Source: Streptosporangiaceae bacterium (GTDB lineage Bacteria; Actinomycetota; Actinomycetes; Streptosporangiales; Streptosporangiaceae). From it: 11,623 nucleotides of DNA. The notes under the pieces were generated by a model that saw nothing but the letters and a program-made list of their open reading frames with translations, was not told where the DNA came from and ran no database searches. The position numbers and the translations under genes are program-made. Positions 4,790 to 11,149 of this stretch are shown piece by piece (the stretch's first letter is position 1; every line of letters begins with the position of its first letter). The stretch is taken from the NCBI GenBank assembly GCA_030042885.1, contig JASHYW010000217.1:1-11623 (forward strand), in the 5' to 3' direction.

Positions 4790-6262
4790 GTGTATGTCGT
4801 AATGATAGCGCCCGAGTGCGCGCCGGCGGCCAAGGCCGGCGGGCTGGGCGATGTGGTAGCCGGCCTGAGCCGCGAGCTGGAGCTGCGGGGGAACGCGGTC
4901 GAGATCATCCTGCCGAAGTACGCCAGCCTGCGCTACTCCGATATCTGGGACCTGCAGCCCAGCTACCACGACTTGTCGGTGCCGTGGTATGGCGGGGCCG
5001 TCCGCTGCACGGTGTGGTTCGGCTACGCGAACGGCCGGAAATGCTTCTTCATCGAGCCGCACTCGGCGGCTGATTTCTTCGCCCGGGACCGCTTGTACGG
5101 GTACGGCGACGACGCGGAGCGGTTCGCGTTCTTCTCCAAGGCTGCTCTCGAATTCATGGTCCGCGCCGGGAAGCGCCCCGATGTCATTCACTGCCACGAC
5201 TGGCAGACCGGGCTCGTCCCGGTCCTGCTGTATGAGCAGTACGGCCAGGTCATGCCAGACCAGAGAGTCTGCTACACCATCCACAACTTCCGCCATCAGG
5301 GCACCAGCGGCGAGCAGTTGCTCTGGGCCACCGGGCTGGGCCGCCCCGACTATTTCCTCGACGCCGACCGGCTGGGCGATGACTTCCGCTACCGCGGGCT
5401 GAACCCGATGAAGGGCGGCATCCTGTATGCGAATTTCGTGACCACGGTCTCCCCCAACCATGCCGACGAGGCGCTCTACGACGACGGCGCCTCTGGGCTC
5501 GGCCGCACCCTCAAGGACCATCAGGACAAGTTCCGCGGCGTGCTCAACGGCGTCGACTACGACGTCTGGAACCCCGAGACTGACCCGTTCCTGACGACCC
5601 GTTACTCAATGGAAAGCATCGAGCGCAAAGCCGAGGACAAAAGGGCGCTCAGGGACCGGTTCTGGCTGCGCGACAGCGATGGCCCGGTCGTGGCGTTCGT
5701 GGGCCGGCTCGACGAGCAGAAGGGCATGCACCTGGTCCACCACGCCCTGTTCTACACCCTGGCCCATCGCGGCCAGTTCGTCCTGATCGGCGACGCCGGA
5801 TACCACGACGGCATCACCGACCATTTCTGGCATCTCAAGGGGTACCTCAACGACAATCCGGATTGCCACCTGGAGATCGGCTACCGCGAGGACCTGGCCC
5901 ACCTGGTCTACGCGGGCGCGAACCTGCTGCTGGTGCCCAGCATGTTCGAGCCGTGCGGGCTGGCTCCCCTGATCGGCATGCGGTACGGGACGGTGCCCAT
6001 GGTGCGGGCCACCGGCGGTATGGCCGACACCGTGTTCGACTACGACCACTCGGGGCGCCCGCCGGCCGAGCGCAACGGGTACGTCTTCCACCACACCGAC
6101 AACCGGGCCGTCGAATCCGCGCTGAGCCGGGCCCTACGGCTGTGGTCCGGCCGCCCGCGTGCATTCGGCAAGCTCGTCGCCACCTGCATGCGCGCCGACT
6201 ACTCCTGGGCCCGGCCCGGCCAGGAATACCTGGACATCTACCAGCACATCCGGCACAAATGA
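4790..6262 (+). CDS. glgA: Glycogen synthase, GT5 family (ADP-glucose type)
   Basis: This complete 490-residue protein is of typical GlgA length. It transfers glucose from a nucleotide sugar, usually ADP-glucose, to the non-reducing end of alpha-1,4-glucan in the cytoplasm. Visible motifs are the N-terminal KxGGL sugar-nucleotide loop (KAGGLGDVV, Lys15), the HCHDWQTGLVP acceptor-side motif (134-144), YTIHNFRHQG (162-171), TTVSPNHADE (218-227), VLNGVDYDVWNPETDP (251-266), GRLDEQKG (305-312), and FEPCGLAPLIGMRYGTVPMV plus TGGMADTV (386-415), with Glu387 as the conserved C-domain catalytic-site glutamate. GTG 4790 lies 3 bases after an in-frame TGA (4784-4786); ATG 4802 is the only near alternative but trims the first strand. 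The ribosome site (GGTGGGTGAG) is weak. Many mycobacteria use the GT4-type GlgA/GlgM instead, so a GT5 enzyme is informative about lineage. It is the only clear gene on its strand in this section. Confidence 0.95.
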   Translation: MYVVMIAPECAPAAKAGGLGDVVAGLSRELELRGNAVEIILPKYASLRYSDIWDLQPSYHDLSVPWYGGAVRCTVWFGYANGRKCFFIEPHSAADFFARDRLYGYGDDAERFAFFSKAALEFMVRAGKRPDVIHCHDWQTGLVPVLLYEQYGQVMPDQRVCYTIHNFRHQGTSGEQLLWATGLGRPDYFLDADRLGDDFRYRGLNPMKGGILYANFVTTVSPNHADEALYDDGASGLGRTLKDHQDKFRGVLNGVDYDVWNPETDPFLTTRYSMESIERKAEDKRALRDRFWLRDSDGPVVAFVGRLDEQKGMHLVHHALFYTLAHRGQFVLIGDAGYHDGITDHFWHLKGYLNDNPDCHLEIGYREDLAHLVYAGANLLLVPSMFEPCGLAPLIGMRYGTVPMVRATGGMADTVFDYDHSGRPPAERNGYVFHHTDNRAVESALSRALRLWSGRPRAFGKLVATCMRADYSWARPGQEYLDIYQHIRHK

Positions 6263-6598: not shown

Positions 6599-8521
6599 TC
6601 AGCGGCGCAGCCGCCAGCTGAGCACTTCGCCAATGTGAAAGGTTGGCCTGCCGAAGAGCCGGGTCAGGACGCGTGCAACGGGTGACTGCTGGCTGGTGAC
6701 CACGACGATCGCAGCGGTCCGCCAGGATCCGAGGACGGCACGGAGCTCCGCGTCGGACAGGCTTGGTGGATGCCGTCCCTGCCACAGCTCATCCAGGTAA
6801 CTGGCGACCTCCGTCTGCGGACTGCGGACCGAGAAGAAGAACGCGGCCTCCCCGGTAGGGCCGGGCCCGATGAAGTAGCCGCCGATCATCGAGCCGGGCT
6901 GACCTGTATCCGCCTGCCAGCGCAGTACCTCGGGCTCGCCACCGGAGGGGAACGGGAGGGCGAGCACCGGCGCGTCCAGTGGGAGTCGCAGCCTGGCGAA
7001 GGTCGCCTGCCAGCCGACCGGGACCTGCGAGAGCGGAGCTGCCTGGTAAGGCAGCGGCACCAGCGGCAAGACTGCGAACAGCGCGACCGCGATGAGGGCT
7101 CCGCGTGGCCAGCCCCGCCAGCCCCCGGGCCGCCGCACCGCCCCGCGTGCCCGATCCAGCGAGAACGCAAGGACCGCGGCAGCCGCACCGTCCGCGAGGA
7201 GAGAGATGCGCCACGGCAGCACTTGTGTCAGAAGGGGAAGCCCTTCCAGCCAATGCCATGGCAGCAGCCGCCCCGGCCACCTGAAACCGCCGCCGACGGG
7301 CAGGTTGCCGCCGCCGAGTGCACACAGTTCCAGCACCACCCAGGTCACCGCCGCGGCCCGGACCCGCAGATCCCGCCAGAACACCGCCACGGCGACCACC
7401 AGGACACCGATCAGCGGCCAGCCCAGGTAAGCCAGGTCCTCAGCCCTCGGCCGCACGATCGGCGGGGTGGCAGCCGCGCTGGCGCGGGTGTGGAACAGCA
7501 GCGAAGCCGAGGGCGTGACCACCCAGGCAGGGTTGCTGACTATCGAAACCAGCAGCTTATTGTGTTCGGCCAGCGGGCCAGCAAGCTGCACCCACAGCGC
7601 ATGCCCGCCGGCGAGCAGAAACACCGCCGCCGCCGCGGCCAGCCCGGTCACTGCGCCGCGGACCCGCCCCGGCACCGCCATGGGGCGGCTCACCGCCACC
7701 GTCACCGTGAGGATCAGGCCCGCCAGCGCCGTGTACACCAAGAGCTCTTCCCCGATAAACAGCTGCGCGGCGCACAACAGCCCAAGCCAGACGCCGACCC
7801 GGACGCTGCGCCCACGACCGGTGATCAGCCGAAGGACAGCATCGATGATCAGCGGCGGCAGAACCGCGAACTGCAGATGGTAGTGCGCGAAGCCCGCGTT
7901 CAGCATCGCTGGGGAAAACCCGTAGACCGCCCCGCCCAGCGCGGCCGCGCTGACACTCGCCCCCCACCGGCGCAGCACCCAGAACAAGCTGGCCGCCGAC
8001 CCCGCGAAGCCCAGCGTCAGCACCACGGTCAGGCTGACCTGCGGGCCGGCCAGCAGCGTCACCGGCGCGAGCAGCACCCCCGGCAGCAGGAACGATGTGT
8101 TCCACATCAGGTTGATACCCTGCGGCGCGTTCATCGCGGCCGTCACCAGCGCAGGCAGGCGCCCGTGCGCGACAGCCGTGGCCGCATAGCGCAGGAACCA
8201 GGCAAACAAGTCCACGTCGCCGCCACCACCAAGCTGGTCACGGCCAGCCGGATCCGCCCACAACCGCGCTGTCACCGCCGCCGCGCCGATGAGGTAGCAG
8301 CATGCCACCAGCCACGGCTCCACCGTCCGATGGTGACGCCCTTGGCGCTCCACGGCCCGCGTCGGCTCGGCCACCAGCGGGGCAAAGCCCGCCGTCGCCT
8401 TCCTCCCCGGTGCTTCCGCGGCCGTCAGCCGCTCATCGGGATCCGGCTCGCCGGTATCCACGGACGCGCACGGGTCTTGTCCAGCCTCACGCTGTTCCCT
8501 GGGCGTCACAGAGCGCCTCAC
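6599..8521 (-). CDS. Polytopic membrane protein, GT-C glycosyltransferase-like
   Basis: The 640-residue protein begins with about 65 hydrophilic residues. About ten hydrophobic segments follow (roughly 70-88, 142-160, 163-183, 192-208, 213-232, 242-258, 260-278, 290-311, 366-381, 390-404, 440-455, 474-490), and the last 150 residues are probably extracytoplasmic. GGDVD at 100-104, just after the first membrane helix, matches the acidic motif that GT-C enzymes place in the first outer loop, and NAPQGINLMW (131-140) fits the P-x-G-x-N pattern seen in actinobacterial members. GT-C enzymes use polyprenyl-phosphate sugars on the outer face; donor and acceptor are unknown here. The start is GTG 8521, preceded directly by in-frame TGA and with no strong ribosome site; GTG 8509 is an alternative. 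A long plus-strand frame covers the same DNA but is a compositional shadow. The exact family is uncertain. Confidence 0.75.
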   Translation of the reverse strand: MRRSVTPREQREAGQDPCASVDTGEPDPDERLTAAEAPGRKATAGFAPLVAEPTRAVERQGRHHRTVEPWLVACCYLIGAAAVTARLWADPAGRDQLGGGGDVDLFAWFLRYAATAVAHGRLPALVTAAMNAPQGINLMWNTSFLLPGVLLAPVTLLAGPQVSLTVVLTLGFAGSAASLFWVLRRWGASVSAAALGGAVYGFSPAMLNAGFAHYHLQFAVLPPLIIDAVLRLITGRGRSVRVGVWLGLLCAAQLFIGEELLVYTALAGLILTVTVAVSRPMAVPGRVRGAVTGLAAAAAVFLLAGGHALWVQLAGPLAEHNKLLVSIVSNPAWVVTPSASLLFHTRASAAATPPIVRPRAEDLAYLGWPLIGVLVVAVAVFWRDLRVRAAAVTWVVLELCALGGGNLPVGGGFRWPGRLLPWHWLEGLPLLTQVLPWRISLLADGAAAAVLAFSLDRARGAVRRPGGWRGWPRGALIAVALFAVLPLVPLPYQAAPLSQVPVGWQATFARLRLPLDAPVLALPFPSGGEPEVLRWQADTGQPGSMIGGYFIGPGPTGEAAFFFSVRSPQTEVASYLDELWQGRHPPSLSDAELRAVLGSWRTAAIVVVTSQQSPVARVLTRLFGRPTFHIGEVLSWRLRR

Positions 8522-8828: not shown

Positions 8829-9984
8829 ATGGTTATCGTGCGCGGGGTGCACGTGGTGGGCCCGCTGGAACCGTATGCGGAAGGACTGGCCTGCGAGCTG
8901 GCCCGGCTGGGCTTCACCGAGCTTTCGGCTGGTGGCCAGTTGCGGCTGGCCGCGCACCTGAGCAGGTGGCTGGCCGTGGAGGCCTGGGGACGGCAGCGCT
9001 GGCTGACCCGGTGACGGACCGGTTTCTGGCGGCGCGCCGCGCCGCCGGGTATACGGGGTACTTGTCGCCCAAGGCACTGCGCCCGGTGCTGGATTACCTG
9101 CGCAGCCTTGGCGTAGTGCCGGAACCGGAACAACCCCTGGCCGGCGAGCGTGGCAGGGGAATTGCTGGAGGCGTACCGGGAGTACCTGCTGGGCGAGCGC
9201 GGCGTGCAGGCTGCTGTGGCCCGCGGCTACCTCTACCTGATCCGCCCGTTCGCGGAGCGGTACGCCGCCGGCGGCACGGCGGGTCTGCAAGGGCTGACGC
9301 CGGGCGATGTCACGGCATTCCTGACTGCCCAGTCGCGGCGGCTGGCGCCGAAGACCGCTCAGCGGCTGGCGACCGCGTTGCGGTCGCTGCTGCGGTTCTG
9401 GCATCTGCAGGGCCTGACCTGCGGGGGCCTGGAGCAGGCGGTGCCGAAGGTAGCGAATCGCCAGCCGGGGCTTCCCCGGCCGCTGGAGCCCGGCCAGGTG
9501 CAGGCTTTGCTGGATTCCTGCGACCTGCAGACCGCGTCCGGGCTGCGCGACCTGGCGATGCTCACGCTGATGGCGCGGATGGGGCTGCGGGCCGGGGAGG
9601 TCGCCGGCCTGCGCCTGGACGACATCGGCTGGCGGGCCGGGGAGGTCACCGTCCGCGGCAAGGGCAACCGCCACGACCGGCTTCCGCTCACGGCTGACGC
9701 GGGCGAGGCGACAGCGGCCTGGCTCCAGCGTGGCCGACCCGCCACGGCGCTAGACCGCAGCGTGTTCACTCGCATCAAGGCCCCGCACCGGGGCCTGACC
9801 TCGGGCGGGGTCACCCAGGCGGTCGCGGCAGCGGCCAGGCGGGCCGGGCTGGGCGCAGTTCACGCCCACCGGCTGCGGCACAGCGCGGCCACCGCTCCCT
9901 ACCAGTTCCGAGGACGGCATCCCCGAGATACTGGCTGAGCTGCGTCTTGGCCATGAGGTTCCGGGCATGACCTGGCCTTATGCC
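8829..9984 (+). pseudogene. Tyrosine recombinase (phage-integrase family), frameshifted
   Basis: Read across three frames this is a near full-length tyrosine recombinase of about 385 residues. Frame A (ATG 8829 to about 8985) gives the N-terminal HLSRWLAVEA region. A second frame (about 8980-9130) continues with DRFLAARRAAGYTGYLSPKA, and the first frame resumes near 9145 with VAGELLEAYREYLLGERG, the SAM-like core-binding domain. The catalytic domain has Arg in LRAGEV (codon 9588-9590), Lys in RGKGNR and H-x-x-R in HAHRLRHSAAT (9867-9878). Near 9890-9900 the frame moves again, and the remaining box LRLGH (His 9952-9954) and catalytic Tyr (TAT 9979-9981, nine residues after that His) are in the new frame. 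Left unshifted, the frame ends at 9938 without these residues. The gene appears decayed. GTG 9150 could start a shorter but incomplete protein. It points at the tRNA fragment next to it. Confidence 0.8.
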
Positions 9985-9986
9985 AG

Positions 9987-10033
9987 TGGGCGATACTGGG
10001 ATCGAACCAGTGACCTCCTCGGTGTGAACGAGG
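9987..10033 (-). tRNA. tRNA-Val(CAC) 3' half, att core of an integrated element
   Basis: On the minus strand the sequence gives an anticodon arm CCTCG-TTCACAC-CGAGG (anticodon CAC, valine), a 5-base variable region AGGTC, a T arm ACTGG-TTCGATC-CCAGT, then the acceptor strand ATCGCCC and discriminator A. All stems pair perfectly. The 5' half is missing: no GGGCGAT acceptor strand or D arm occurs in the following ~50 bases. This is not a functional tRNA. A 3' half of this length, from the anticodon stem to the 3' end, is the usual identity segment of elements that integrate into tRNA genes. It is left at the junction away from the restored tRNA, so the element should lie to its right (10034 onward). 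Confidence 0.85.
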
Positions 10034-10056
10034 TCCGGTCGGCTCGGCAACCATGG

Positions 10057-10070: not shown

Positions 10071-10097
10071 ACCAGGTCAGGGGCTCCTCTTCAGCCC

Positions 10098-10157
10098 GGT
10101 TGGGAGAGGTTCAGGGCGGTTCGCGCCAGTTGCGGCCTCCCAAATTCCTCCCAGTTG
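10098..10157 (+). promoter_or_regulatory. Helically phased repeat array before the small gene
   Basis: GGTT, GGTT, GGTT and AGTT start at 10098, 10108, 10118 and 10128, exactly 10 bp apart. CCAGTTG occurs at 10126 and 10151, and CCTCCCA at 10136 and 10147 (11 bp apart). The array ends 6 bases before the ribosome site of the 51-codon gene. Such face-of-helix phasing suits cooperative protein binding. No clear -10 box was found. Confidence 0.35.
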
Positions 10158-10175
10158 ATCATGGAGGAGAAGCCC

Positions 10176-10331
10176 ATGTCCGATCCCGGTGTCGTCCGGA
10201 CCGAGCACACTCGGCTGCGCGCTGCGGGTTCGCCCGTCGGGGTGGCCTGCGAACTGCCCGATGGCCGTGAGCGACACGGTGCCTGTGGCCCTGCCGGCCA
10301 GTTGACGCGGCGAACGGGAACAGGACGATGA
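10176..10331 (+). CDS. Small 51-residue hypothetical protein coupled to the DUF2637 gene
   Basis: ATG 10176 is preceded by GGAGGAGA (10163-10170) at ideal spacing, and the frame ends in a TGA (10329-10331) overlapping the ATG of the next gene as ATGA. That overlap plus the strong ribosome site argues for a real, translationally coupled gene. The product begins MSDPGVVRTEHTRLRAAGSP and ends QLTRRTGTGR. It is hydrophilic and basic at the end, with two cysteines and no membrane segment or recognisable domain. An in-frame ATG at 10161 would add five residues but contains the ribosome site, so it is less likely. Small genes next to DUF2637 genes are common in integrative elements. I do not recognise its family. 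Confidence 0.65.
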   Translation: MSDPGVVRTEHTRLRAAGSPVGVACELPDGRERHGACGPAGQLTRRTGTGR

Positions 10332-11149
10332 CGGCGCTCACCACTCCCCCGCAGGTTACTGGTGCCTACGACGTGACCGCGACCAGCCAGGTCGACCGGG
10401 TCATACGCGCCTCTACCGCGGTGGCCGTGCTCGCTGTGGCAGGTGTCGCTGCGTATGTTTCCTACTGGCACGCTTACGCGGTCGTCCAGGCACATGGCGA
10501 GAGCGGTGCCACCGCCCGGTTGGAGCCGGCCACTATCGACGGCCTCGTCTACGCCAGTTCGATGGTGATTCTGTACGCGGCGAGGCATGGGAATCGCGTG
10601 CCTCGCCTGGCCCGCTGGCTGCTCGGGCTGGGGATCGCGGCTACCTTGACGGCGAACATGGCCCAGGGCTGGTCGCACGGGCCGGTCGGAGCGGCCGTCG
10701 CGGCCTGGCCTGCGATCAGCCTCGTAGGTTCATACGAACTTCTAGTCTGGCTGATCCGCTCTGCCGGAGCGCTCCAGCAGACTGCATCGGGCGCGCATTG
10801 CCGCCGGTGCATCGCATGCCGTGATGTGATGCCTCCCGCTCCCCGGGTGTCCGTCAACGGCGAGCAGCACGGCCCAAGCGAGCGCGGCTCAGCGGCGGCT
10901 CAGGTGGTGCAACCGGTCCAGCACTGGAACGCCGCAGCCGACACTGAGCGCCAGGAGGGAGCCGATGAGGACGTCAATCGCGCTGCAGTGATCGCTTACC
11001 AGCTGAGCGTCCAAGCCGGGAATCCGCTCTCTGAACGCAAACTCGCACAAACGTTCGGACGAACTTCCCGCCGCTGGGCGCGCGCGAGGATCACCGAGGC
11101 ACGTAAAATATCGCCCTTCCAGGACGCGCCAGGGACTCCGTCGTCATGA
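10328..11149 (+). CDS. DUF2637 membrane protein with C-terminal helix-turn-helix
   Basis: This 273-residue protein belongs to the DUF2637 group frequent in actinomycete integrative and conjugative elements. Four membrane segments fill the N-terminal half (about 28-50, 68-86, 97-113, 118-145). They include the family-like YVSYWHAYAVVQAHGESG, ARLEPATIDGLVYASSMV and LGIAATLTANMAQGWSHGPV. After a linker, LSERKLAQTFGRTSRRWARA (235-254) is a predicted helix-turn-helix typical of the family C-terminus. The role is unestablished; an association with transfer or replication of the element is usually assumed from context. Unusually, AHCRRCIAC (156-164) places three cysteines two residues apart right after the last membrane helix, a possible metal site. 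The start overlaps the stop of the small upstream gene (ATGA). The usual partner genes (FtsK-like translocase, replication initiator) would lie beyond the window. Confidence 0.85.
   Translation: MTALTTPPQVTGAYDVTATSQVDRVIRASTAVAVLAVAGVAAYVSYWHAYAVVQAHGESGATARLEPATIDGLVYASSMVILYAARHGNRVPRLARWLLGLGIAATLTANMAQGWSHGPVGAAVAAWPAISLVGSYELLVWLIRSAGALQQTASGAHCRRCIACRDVMPPAPRVSVNGEQHGPSERGSAAAQVVQPVQHWNAAADTERQEGADEDVNRAAVIAYQLSVQAGNPLSERKLAQTFGRTSRRWARARITEARKISPFQDAPGTPSS

Follow-up and report, generated by a model that had tools for sequence, protein, structure and literature searches.

The window analysed here (that is, the whole stretch of 11,623 bases, the contig of which ends before the predicted complete tRNA) holds on its left a GlgA gene (4790–6262) with GH65, ABC1-kinase and glyoxalase genes around it, all to the left of the seam described below, and a 640-aa protein gene on the minus strand (6602–8521) that has no Pfam match at E 0.001. 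Given that the 80 relatives of GlgA kept from genome contigs come from many phyla at 56–64% identity, this gene may have been acquired horizontally. The GH65 gene in a stretch of genome G270 was considered as cargo shared with the window and, at 31% identity to the window GH65, was taken for another paralog. Pfam detected no Rep or FtsK domain in the six plus three window proteins searched, the element running off the contig, and no gene for transfer or replication was noted on it.

On the minus strand at 9987–10033 lies the 3′ part of a tRNA-Val(CAC) gene, which constitutes the att core and comprises the anticodon stem (from its first base) and loop, the variable region, the T arm, the 3′ acceptor strand and the discriminator base. 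Positions 9984–10033 are identical to the intact tRNA-Val(CAC) gene of genome G009 (locus L181; 50 of 50 bases, E 8e-25), and 62 of 66 bases agree when more flank is included; this was the best match obtained for the query 9967–10040, which matched in 327 of 393 actinobacterial genomes. ARAGORN reported no tRNA gene in the window and the Rfam tRNA model scored the core at 23.4 bits, below its cut-off of 29, as expected for a tRNA fragment. The earlier note on this DNA had described an antisense tRNA-Val(CAC) 3′ half without a 5′ half, and this description holds: the match to an intact gene is perfect and no 5′ half adjoins. A search of the window with the whole tRNA returned neither a complete 5′ half joined to or beside the core, which that note had named among the findings that should overturn its reading, nor a second core copy. 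An exact search of viral contigs gave 0 matches for the window form of the core and 2 for the form found in Nonomuraea (see below), the latter being read at the core flanks alone.

The core is preceded by an att-flanking spacer (9968–9986, plus strand) that begins with a TGACCTG box (9968–9974), and an inverted copy of this box lies in the right-hand flank (10073–10079, minus strand). In either orientation, the box occurs within 450 bp upstream of DUF2637 genes at 7 of 8 loci that have a tRNA fragment (window included) and at 22 of 77 loci that do not (expected, 0.1 per locus). It is also present behind tRNA genes that run directly into a hairpin (L166 and L191), and AGGTCA lies within 45 bp downstream of 15 of the 133 distinct tRNA genes in the fetched actinobacterial loci, some of them running into a hairpin. 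As the box also stands behind such genes, TGACCTG alone is no proof of an integrase arm; having been found after tRNA genes without an integrase, it was rejected as an integrase arm mark and kept as a flank motif.

Left of the spacer, at 8829–9896 on the plus strand, is the remnant of a recombinase (recombinase A) of a XerD-like family of about 402 aa, identified by tblastn, profile and Pfam Phage_integrase matches, that lacks its C terminus and contains stops and frame changes. Residues 1–356 of protein P0002 align with 8829–9896 at 77% identity, two stop codons being included, and the match to the family ends at residue 356 of about 402 (near position 9896); a profile of 105 relatives, which likewise breaks off there, scores 470 bits for 9150–9935. 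The family is very common (4,808 proteins at E up to 0.001 from 7,999 candidates scored), and both named proteins among the 120 matches listed come from a Streptosporangiaceae bacterium. Recombinase A is a decayed copy of this family. RIT-type recombinase trios are made up of three adjacent recombinase genes.

At 9907–9969 on the plus strand follows a C-terminal scrap of another recombinase, integrase B (21 residues, SEDGIPEILAELRLGHEVPGM; peptide search, tblastn and B profile), in a frame that differs from that of recombinase A. The single broken recombinase that had been read as reaching the core is therefore two: recombinase A ends near 9896 and is followed by a scrap of integrase B in a different frame, and recombinase A, belonging to another family and lying in another frame, was ruled out as the element's own integrase. 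Used as a 33-residue query against 393 genomes, the scrap hit 23 of them at E up to 0.1 (lowest E value, 1.2e-4). The top hits are C termini of tyrosine integrases that share the conserved stretch RLGH...GM..Y (52% identity over 25 residues to the integrase of L107); the weaker ones are not. Against a B profile of 11 integrase ends, the scrap reaches 30.6 bits and recombinase A about 0, although the former score is partly circular because the profile was built from the scrap's own hits; the recombinase A profile misses the scrap. The independent support for the identity of the scrap comes from what the matches are and where they sit. Pfam gives no match to the scrap at E 10, two full-length integrase B members match Phage_integrase at 29.6 and 23.8 bits (cut-off, 27.1), and a tblastn search of plasmids and phages with the scrap plus part of the core returned weak matches only.

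The relatives of integrase B show where such a gene ends. At five loci (L102, L105, L107, L108 and L128), a complete tRNA-Val(GAC) gene stands behind the end of a B-type integrase gene, and at L125 such an end adjoins tRNA-Ala; the open integrase frames are short at L102, L105 and L128 (134, 115 and 198 aa) and span 409 and 412 aa at L107 and L108. At L125, L106 and L127, the integrase frame stops at the TGA with which the TGACCTG box opens, and frame ends range from within this box at these loci to about 110 bp before the core (L107). The suggestion that an att core might overlap the 3′ end of its own integrase thus survives in a weak form (that is, the integrase frame abuts the core in relatives) but not in the strong one, as conserved integrase residues are not encoded in or past the core: the tyrosine codon ends 262–267 bp before the core in five of five tRNA-Val relatives. 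The methionine codon of the GM motif ends 274–279 bp before the core at the same five loci compared with 17 bp in the window, and from this difference about 257–262 bp (that is, the integrase end and the left arm site) seem to be absent from the window, if its ancestor shared the layout of these relatives. At L106 (G244:C69), a 548-aa open integrase frame ends in the TGACCTG box and a tRNA-Ala-like fragment follows, with no complete tRNA detected by ARAGORN; this locus is possibly another seam, or an attP.

Right of the core, a direct repeat (CCTCCCA-N4-CCTCCCA; 10136–10153, plus strand), the presumed integrase arm site (P′ arm) of a right-hand element, is followed on the same strand by a small open reading frame (10161–10331; 56 codons from the ATG at 10161, or 51 from the ATG at 10176) that overlaps, as ATGA, the start codon of a DUF2637 protein gene (10328–11149, plus strand; Pfam PF10935, E 2e-11). 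The latter is the first larger gene of the right-hand element and starts 295 bp past the core end. With the search pattern [CT]CTCCC?A-N-[CT]CTCCC?A, the repeat at 10136–10153 is the only match in the window, and the distance between its start and that of the core is exactly 149 bp both here and in genomes G286, G333 and G364 (L252, L259 and L266), the right flanks of which align with that of the window at 67% mean column identity over the alignment. The repeat is absent from the DUF2637 flanks of three loci with tRNA fragments (L233, L264 and L280) and was not found beside the tRNA fragments of G192, G144 and G105. On the integrase side, it starts exactly 80 bp left of the core at L102, L105, L107, L108 and L128, and 79 bp left at L169; L115 has none, L103 carries the repeat after its integrase, and L127, L125 and L106 are without it. 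The pattern occurs 43 times in the 1.146 Mb of sequence retrieved (the sites above and overlapping loci included); of 27 distinct occurrences, 16 adjoin integrase B, DUF2637 or a tRNA-Val core. Within a genome, one repeat subtype occurs on both sides (TCTCCCA in G286, TCTCCA in G364). We take the repeats at −80 and +149 for putative integrase arm sites.

An antisense tRNA T arm lies within 1,200 bp upstream in 7 of 84 other DUF2637 loci, six times at 231–450 bp, and a sense T arm lies upstream in 1 of the 84; six further places were left out of this count and 2 of the 86 loci supplied had no DUF2637 match. No DUF2637 match was found in viral contigs. The placement of an element on the right of the core, proposed earlier from the orientation of the core, is in keeping with what lies there, namely the DUF2637 gene and the +149 repeat; on this side the window holds the end of an element.

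Three other genomes repeat the order of the window, from integrase scrap through core and +149 repeat to the DUF2637 gene. In G286, G333 and G364, the core and then a DUF2637 end follow an integrase-B remnant, which scores 50–64 bits to the B profile in G286 and G333 (window, 28 bits) and was recognized in G364 by tblastn (E 1e-9); L216 and L248, which are DUF2637 loci without a detected tRNA fragment, score 18 bits. Other genomes hold related arrangements. G192 has a decayed integrase, a tRNA-Val(GAC) fragment, another integrase and a complete tRNA, in that order; the decayed integrase B at G192:C17 (L127 / L196 up to 9711) has a histidine in the catalytic tyrosine position. G144 and G105 each have two tRNA-Val(CAC) fragments and one complete gene within 10 kb, and the match of both G144 fragments stops at the end of the anticodon loop, which fits a crossover at that point. 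In G364, a 78-kb stretch between two cores holds type-IV-secretion-system-like (T4SS-like) genes and may contain more than one element. At L244/L301, L303 and L103 (G286:C14), the core between the same arm repeats and TGACCTG boxes resembles the 3′ end of a permease gene and not a tRNA; by our reading of the DNA by eye, the integrase-B/DUF2637 family thus seems to use a protein gene as a target as well. In G270, an inverted repeat precedes the core, a complete tRNA-Val(GAC) gene and an integrase end lie 9 kb to the right, and no integrase-B remnant was found left of the core; this is a solo element.

We interpret the window as a seam between two elements that accreted in tandem at tRNA-Val(CAC), the left one now decayed, and assign this reading a probability of roughly 78%. 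Three of the features by which such a seam is recognized are present, namely a 3′ tRNA core without its 5′ half, a decayed integrase end on one side and the end of another element opposite; a complete tRNA with a further copy of the core is predicted at the far end of the array, beyond the contig. Of the two readings offered in the earlier note (two tandem elements with the left one decayed, or overlap of the core with its own integrase) the former is the best supported. A single element might yield the same picture if reads of its circular form (attP), or the assembler, had linked its two ends (integrase and DUF2637) through the 47-bp core: integrase, core and DUF2637 in this order are exactly the attP of such an element, the core is the repeat at both ends of an integrated element so that a misjoin could occur, and the order of integrase and core is found on a circle in plasmid III of Nonomuraea gerenzanensis. 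We nevertheless consider this unlikely, as the integrase of the window is a scrap without an arm repeat and therefore unable to make a circle, and as the identical order with decayed integrases recurs within contigs of 396,616, 127,500 and 60,214 bases (G286, G364 and G333, respectively). It is still less probable, and indeed very improbable, that a single element integrated at tRNA-Val(CAC) beside an old integrase scrap of other origin, at a site that had not been used earlier. Although G270 has a solo element whose tRNA flank is ordinary and the flank box also lies behind tRNA genes without an adjoining integrase, the scrap is in family, orientation and place what would be expected if an element of this kind ended there on its right, and G286, G333 and G364 show the same.

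The TAT at 9979–9981, which sits in the spacer 5 bp before the core, had been claimed as the catalytic tyrosine codon of the recombinase. In the protein alignment it indeed occupies the catalytic column, placed four residues past GM like the tyrosine of the relatives; however, the surrounding DNA (9968–9986) agrees with the flank of the tRNA-Val(CAC) gene of G009 at 15 of 19 positions, TTATG included. We judge that the TAT is probably flank DNA, that the true tyrosine codon was deleted and that the position in the catalytic column is fortuitous. That the window instead holds a working or recently working integrase with its catalytic tyrosine encoded in the att flank, the C terminus of which would be altered by integration, is scarcely credible: this placement of the TAT and the integrases extending across attP that are noted in passages of the Islander paper (Mx8 and SSV; PMC4383910) speak for it, yet no integrase B is in place before the residues SEDG (recombinase A, of another family and in another frame, precedes them), the tyrosine of all five relatives lies well before the core, and TTATG is present in the G009 tRNA flank too.

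In the tandem accretion that we favour, the order of events would have been as follows. An older element of the integrase-B/DUF2637 family would have sat at tRNA-Val(CAC) with its integrase gene ending at the tRNA, and a second element of the same family would then have inserted at the restored 3′ end of the tRNA gene, its integrase recombining the core of the circular form with that of the tRNA gene, presumably helped by the arm sites as integrase-binding sites. This would have produced the order of old integrase end, core, new P′ arm and DUF2637, and would have shifted the complete tRNA far to the right. The old integrase may subsequently have decayed by the loss of about 260 bp (including the tyrosine and the P-arm repeat), and the degenerate recombinase A would thus have come to border the integrase-B scrap. 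The contig itself carries no complete tRNA, no second integrase and no left end belonging to the older element; the first two are predicted beyond it. The older integrase is broken or not found in seven of seven seams inspected (the window, three places in G286, and G333, G364 and G192). By the strict pattern, the P-arm repeat left of the core is present in one of these seven (L244/L301) and in six of the seven complete-tRNA-Val(GAC) ends that have an integrase-B end or remnant (L102, L105, L107, L108, L128 and L169, not L115), although at L102, L105, L128 and L169 the integrase frame is short or decayed too.

Accretion of this type has precedents. Passages of PMC9513070 describe how actinomycete integrative and conjugative elements (AICEs) accrete at tRNA genes, decayed members included, and report AICE03 elements in a tRNA-Val gene of Streptomyces, the repeats of which, at 46 nt, are nearly as long as the 47-bp core of the window; PMC3218068, in the sections consulted, reports tandem element pairs in Frankia and Streptomyces and the element order att-tra-rep-int-att, with the integrase at one end. 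As far as these parts of the two papers describe it, AICE accretion resembles the window in that successive elements share one tRNA 3′ end and the older one is a remnant; however, an AICE combines a tyrosine integrase and a tRNA target with a replication initiator and a TraB/FtsK transfer protein, of which the contig, where the element runs off the end, shows the tRNA core and an integrase scrap, and the class of the element is thus not established, nor are the T4SS-like genes between the cores of G364 a shown AICE core. Passages on the Islander approach (PMC4383910) state that the end of an island can be told from a displaced 3′ fragment of a tRNA gene and that tandem arrays are recognized by one fragment and one integrase each; the window shares this fragment principle as set out there, but has the fragment alone, without a complete tRNA.

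A further parallel is plasmid III of Nonomuraea gerenzanensis, a circular 59-kb record that contains an integrase end and a tRNA-Val(CAC) core (L099, 2760–3046). The core has no 5′ half, follows an annotated integrase end and agrees with that of the window at 45 of 46 bases; the chromosome of this organism holds a complete tRNA-Val(CAC) gene, and plasmid and chromosome form an apparent attP/attB pair. Unlike the window, plasmid III has no TGACCTG box left of its core, and an HTH regulator rather than DUF2637 adjoins the core. A keyword search of one paper collection for DUF2637 with 'integrative' found no paper.

In summary, tandem accretion at tRNA genes is already known, and the DNA landmarks of the present case are unusually easy to read. 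For this family of integrative elements from actinobacteria, the att layout (that is, the repeat at −80, the TGACCTG box, the tRNA core, the inverted box, the repeat at +149 and DUF2637) makes it possible to assign short metagenome contigs to an element end and to spot tandem seams without a whole genome. A more speculative and, on balance, doubtful extension is that the survival of tandem elements of this family would require a crippled internal hybrid attP, the loss of one arm locking an unstable array into a permanent island; the greater age of the inner element explains the same integrase and P-arm repeat counts, which come from loci that were not randomly drawn. If true, this lock would bear on the persistence of some tandem arrays, which passages of PMC3218068 call inherently unstable.
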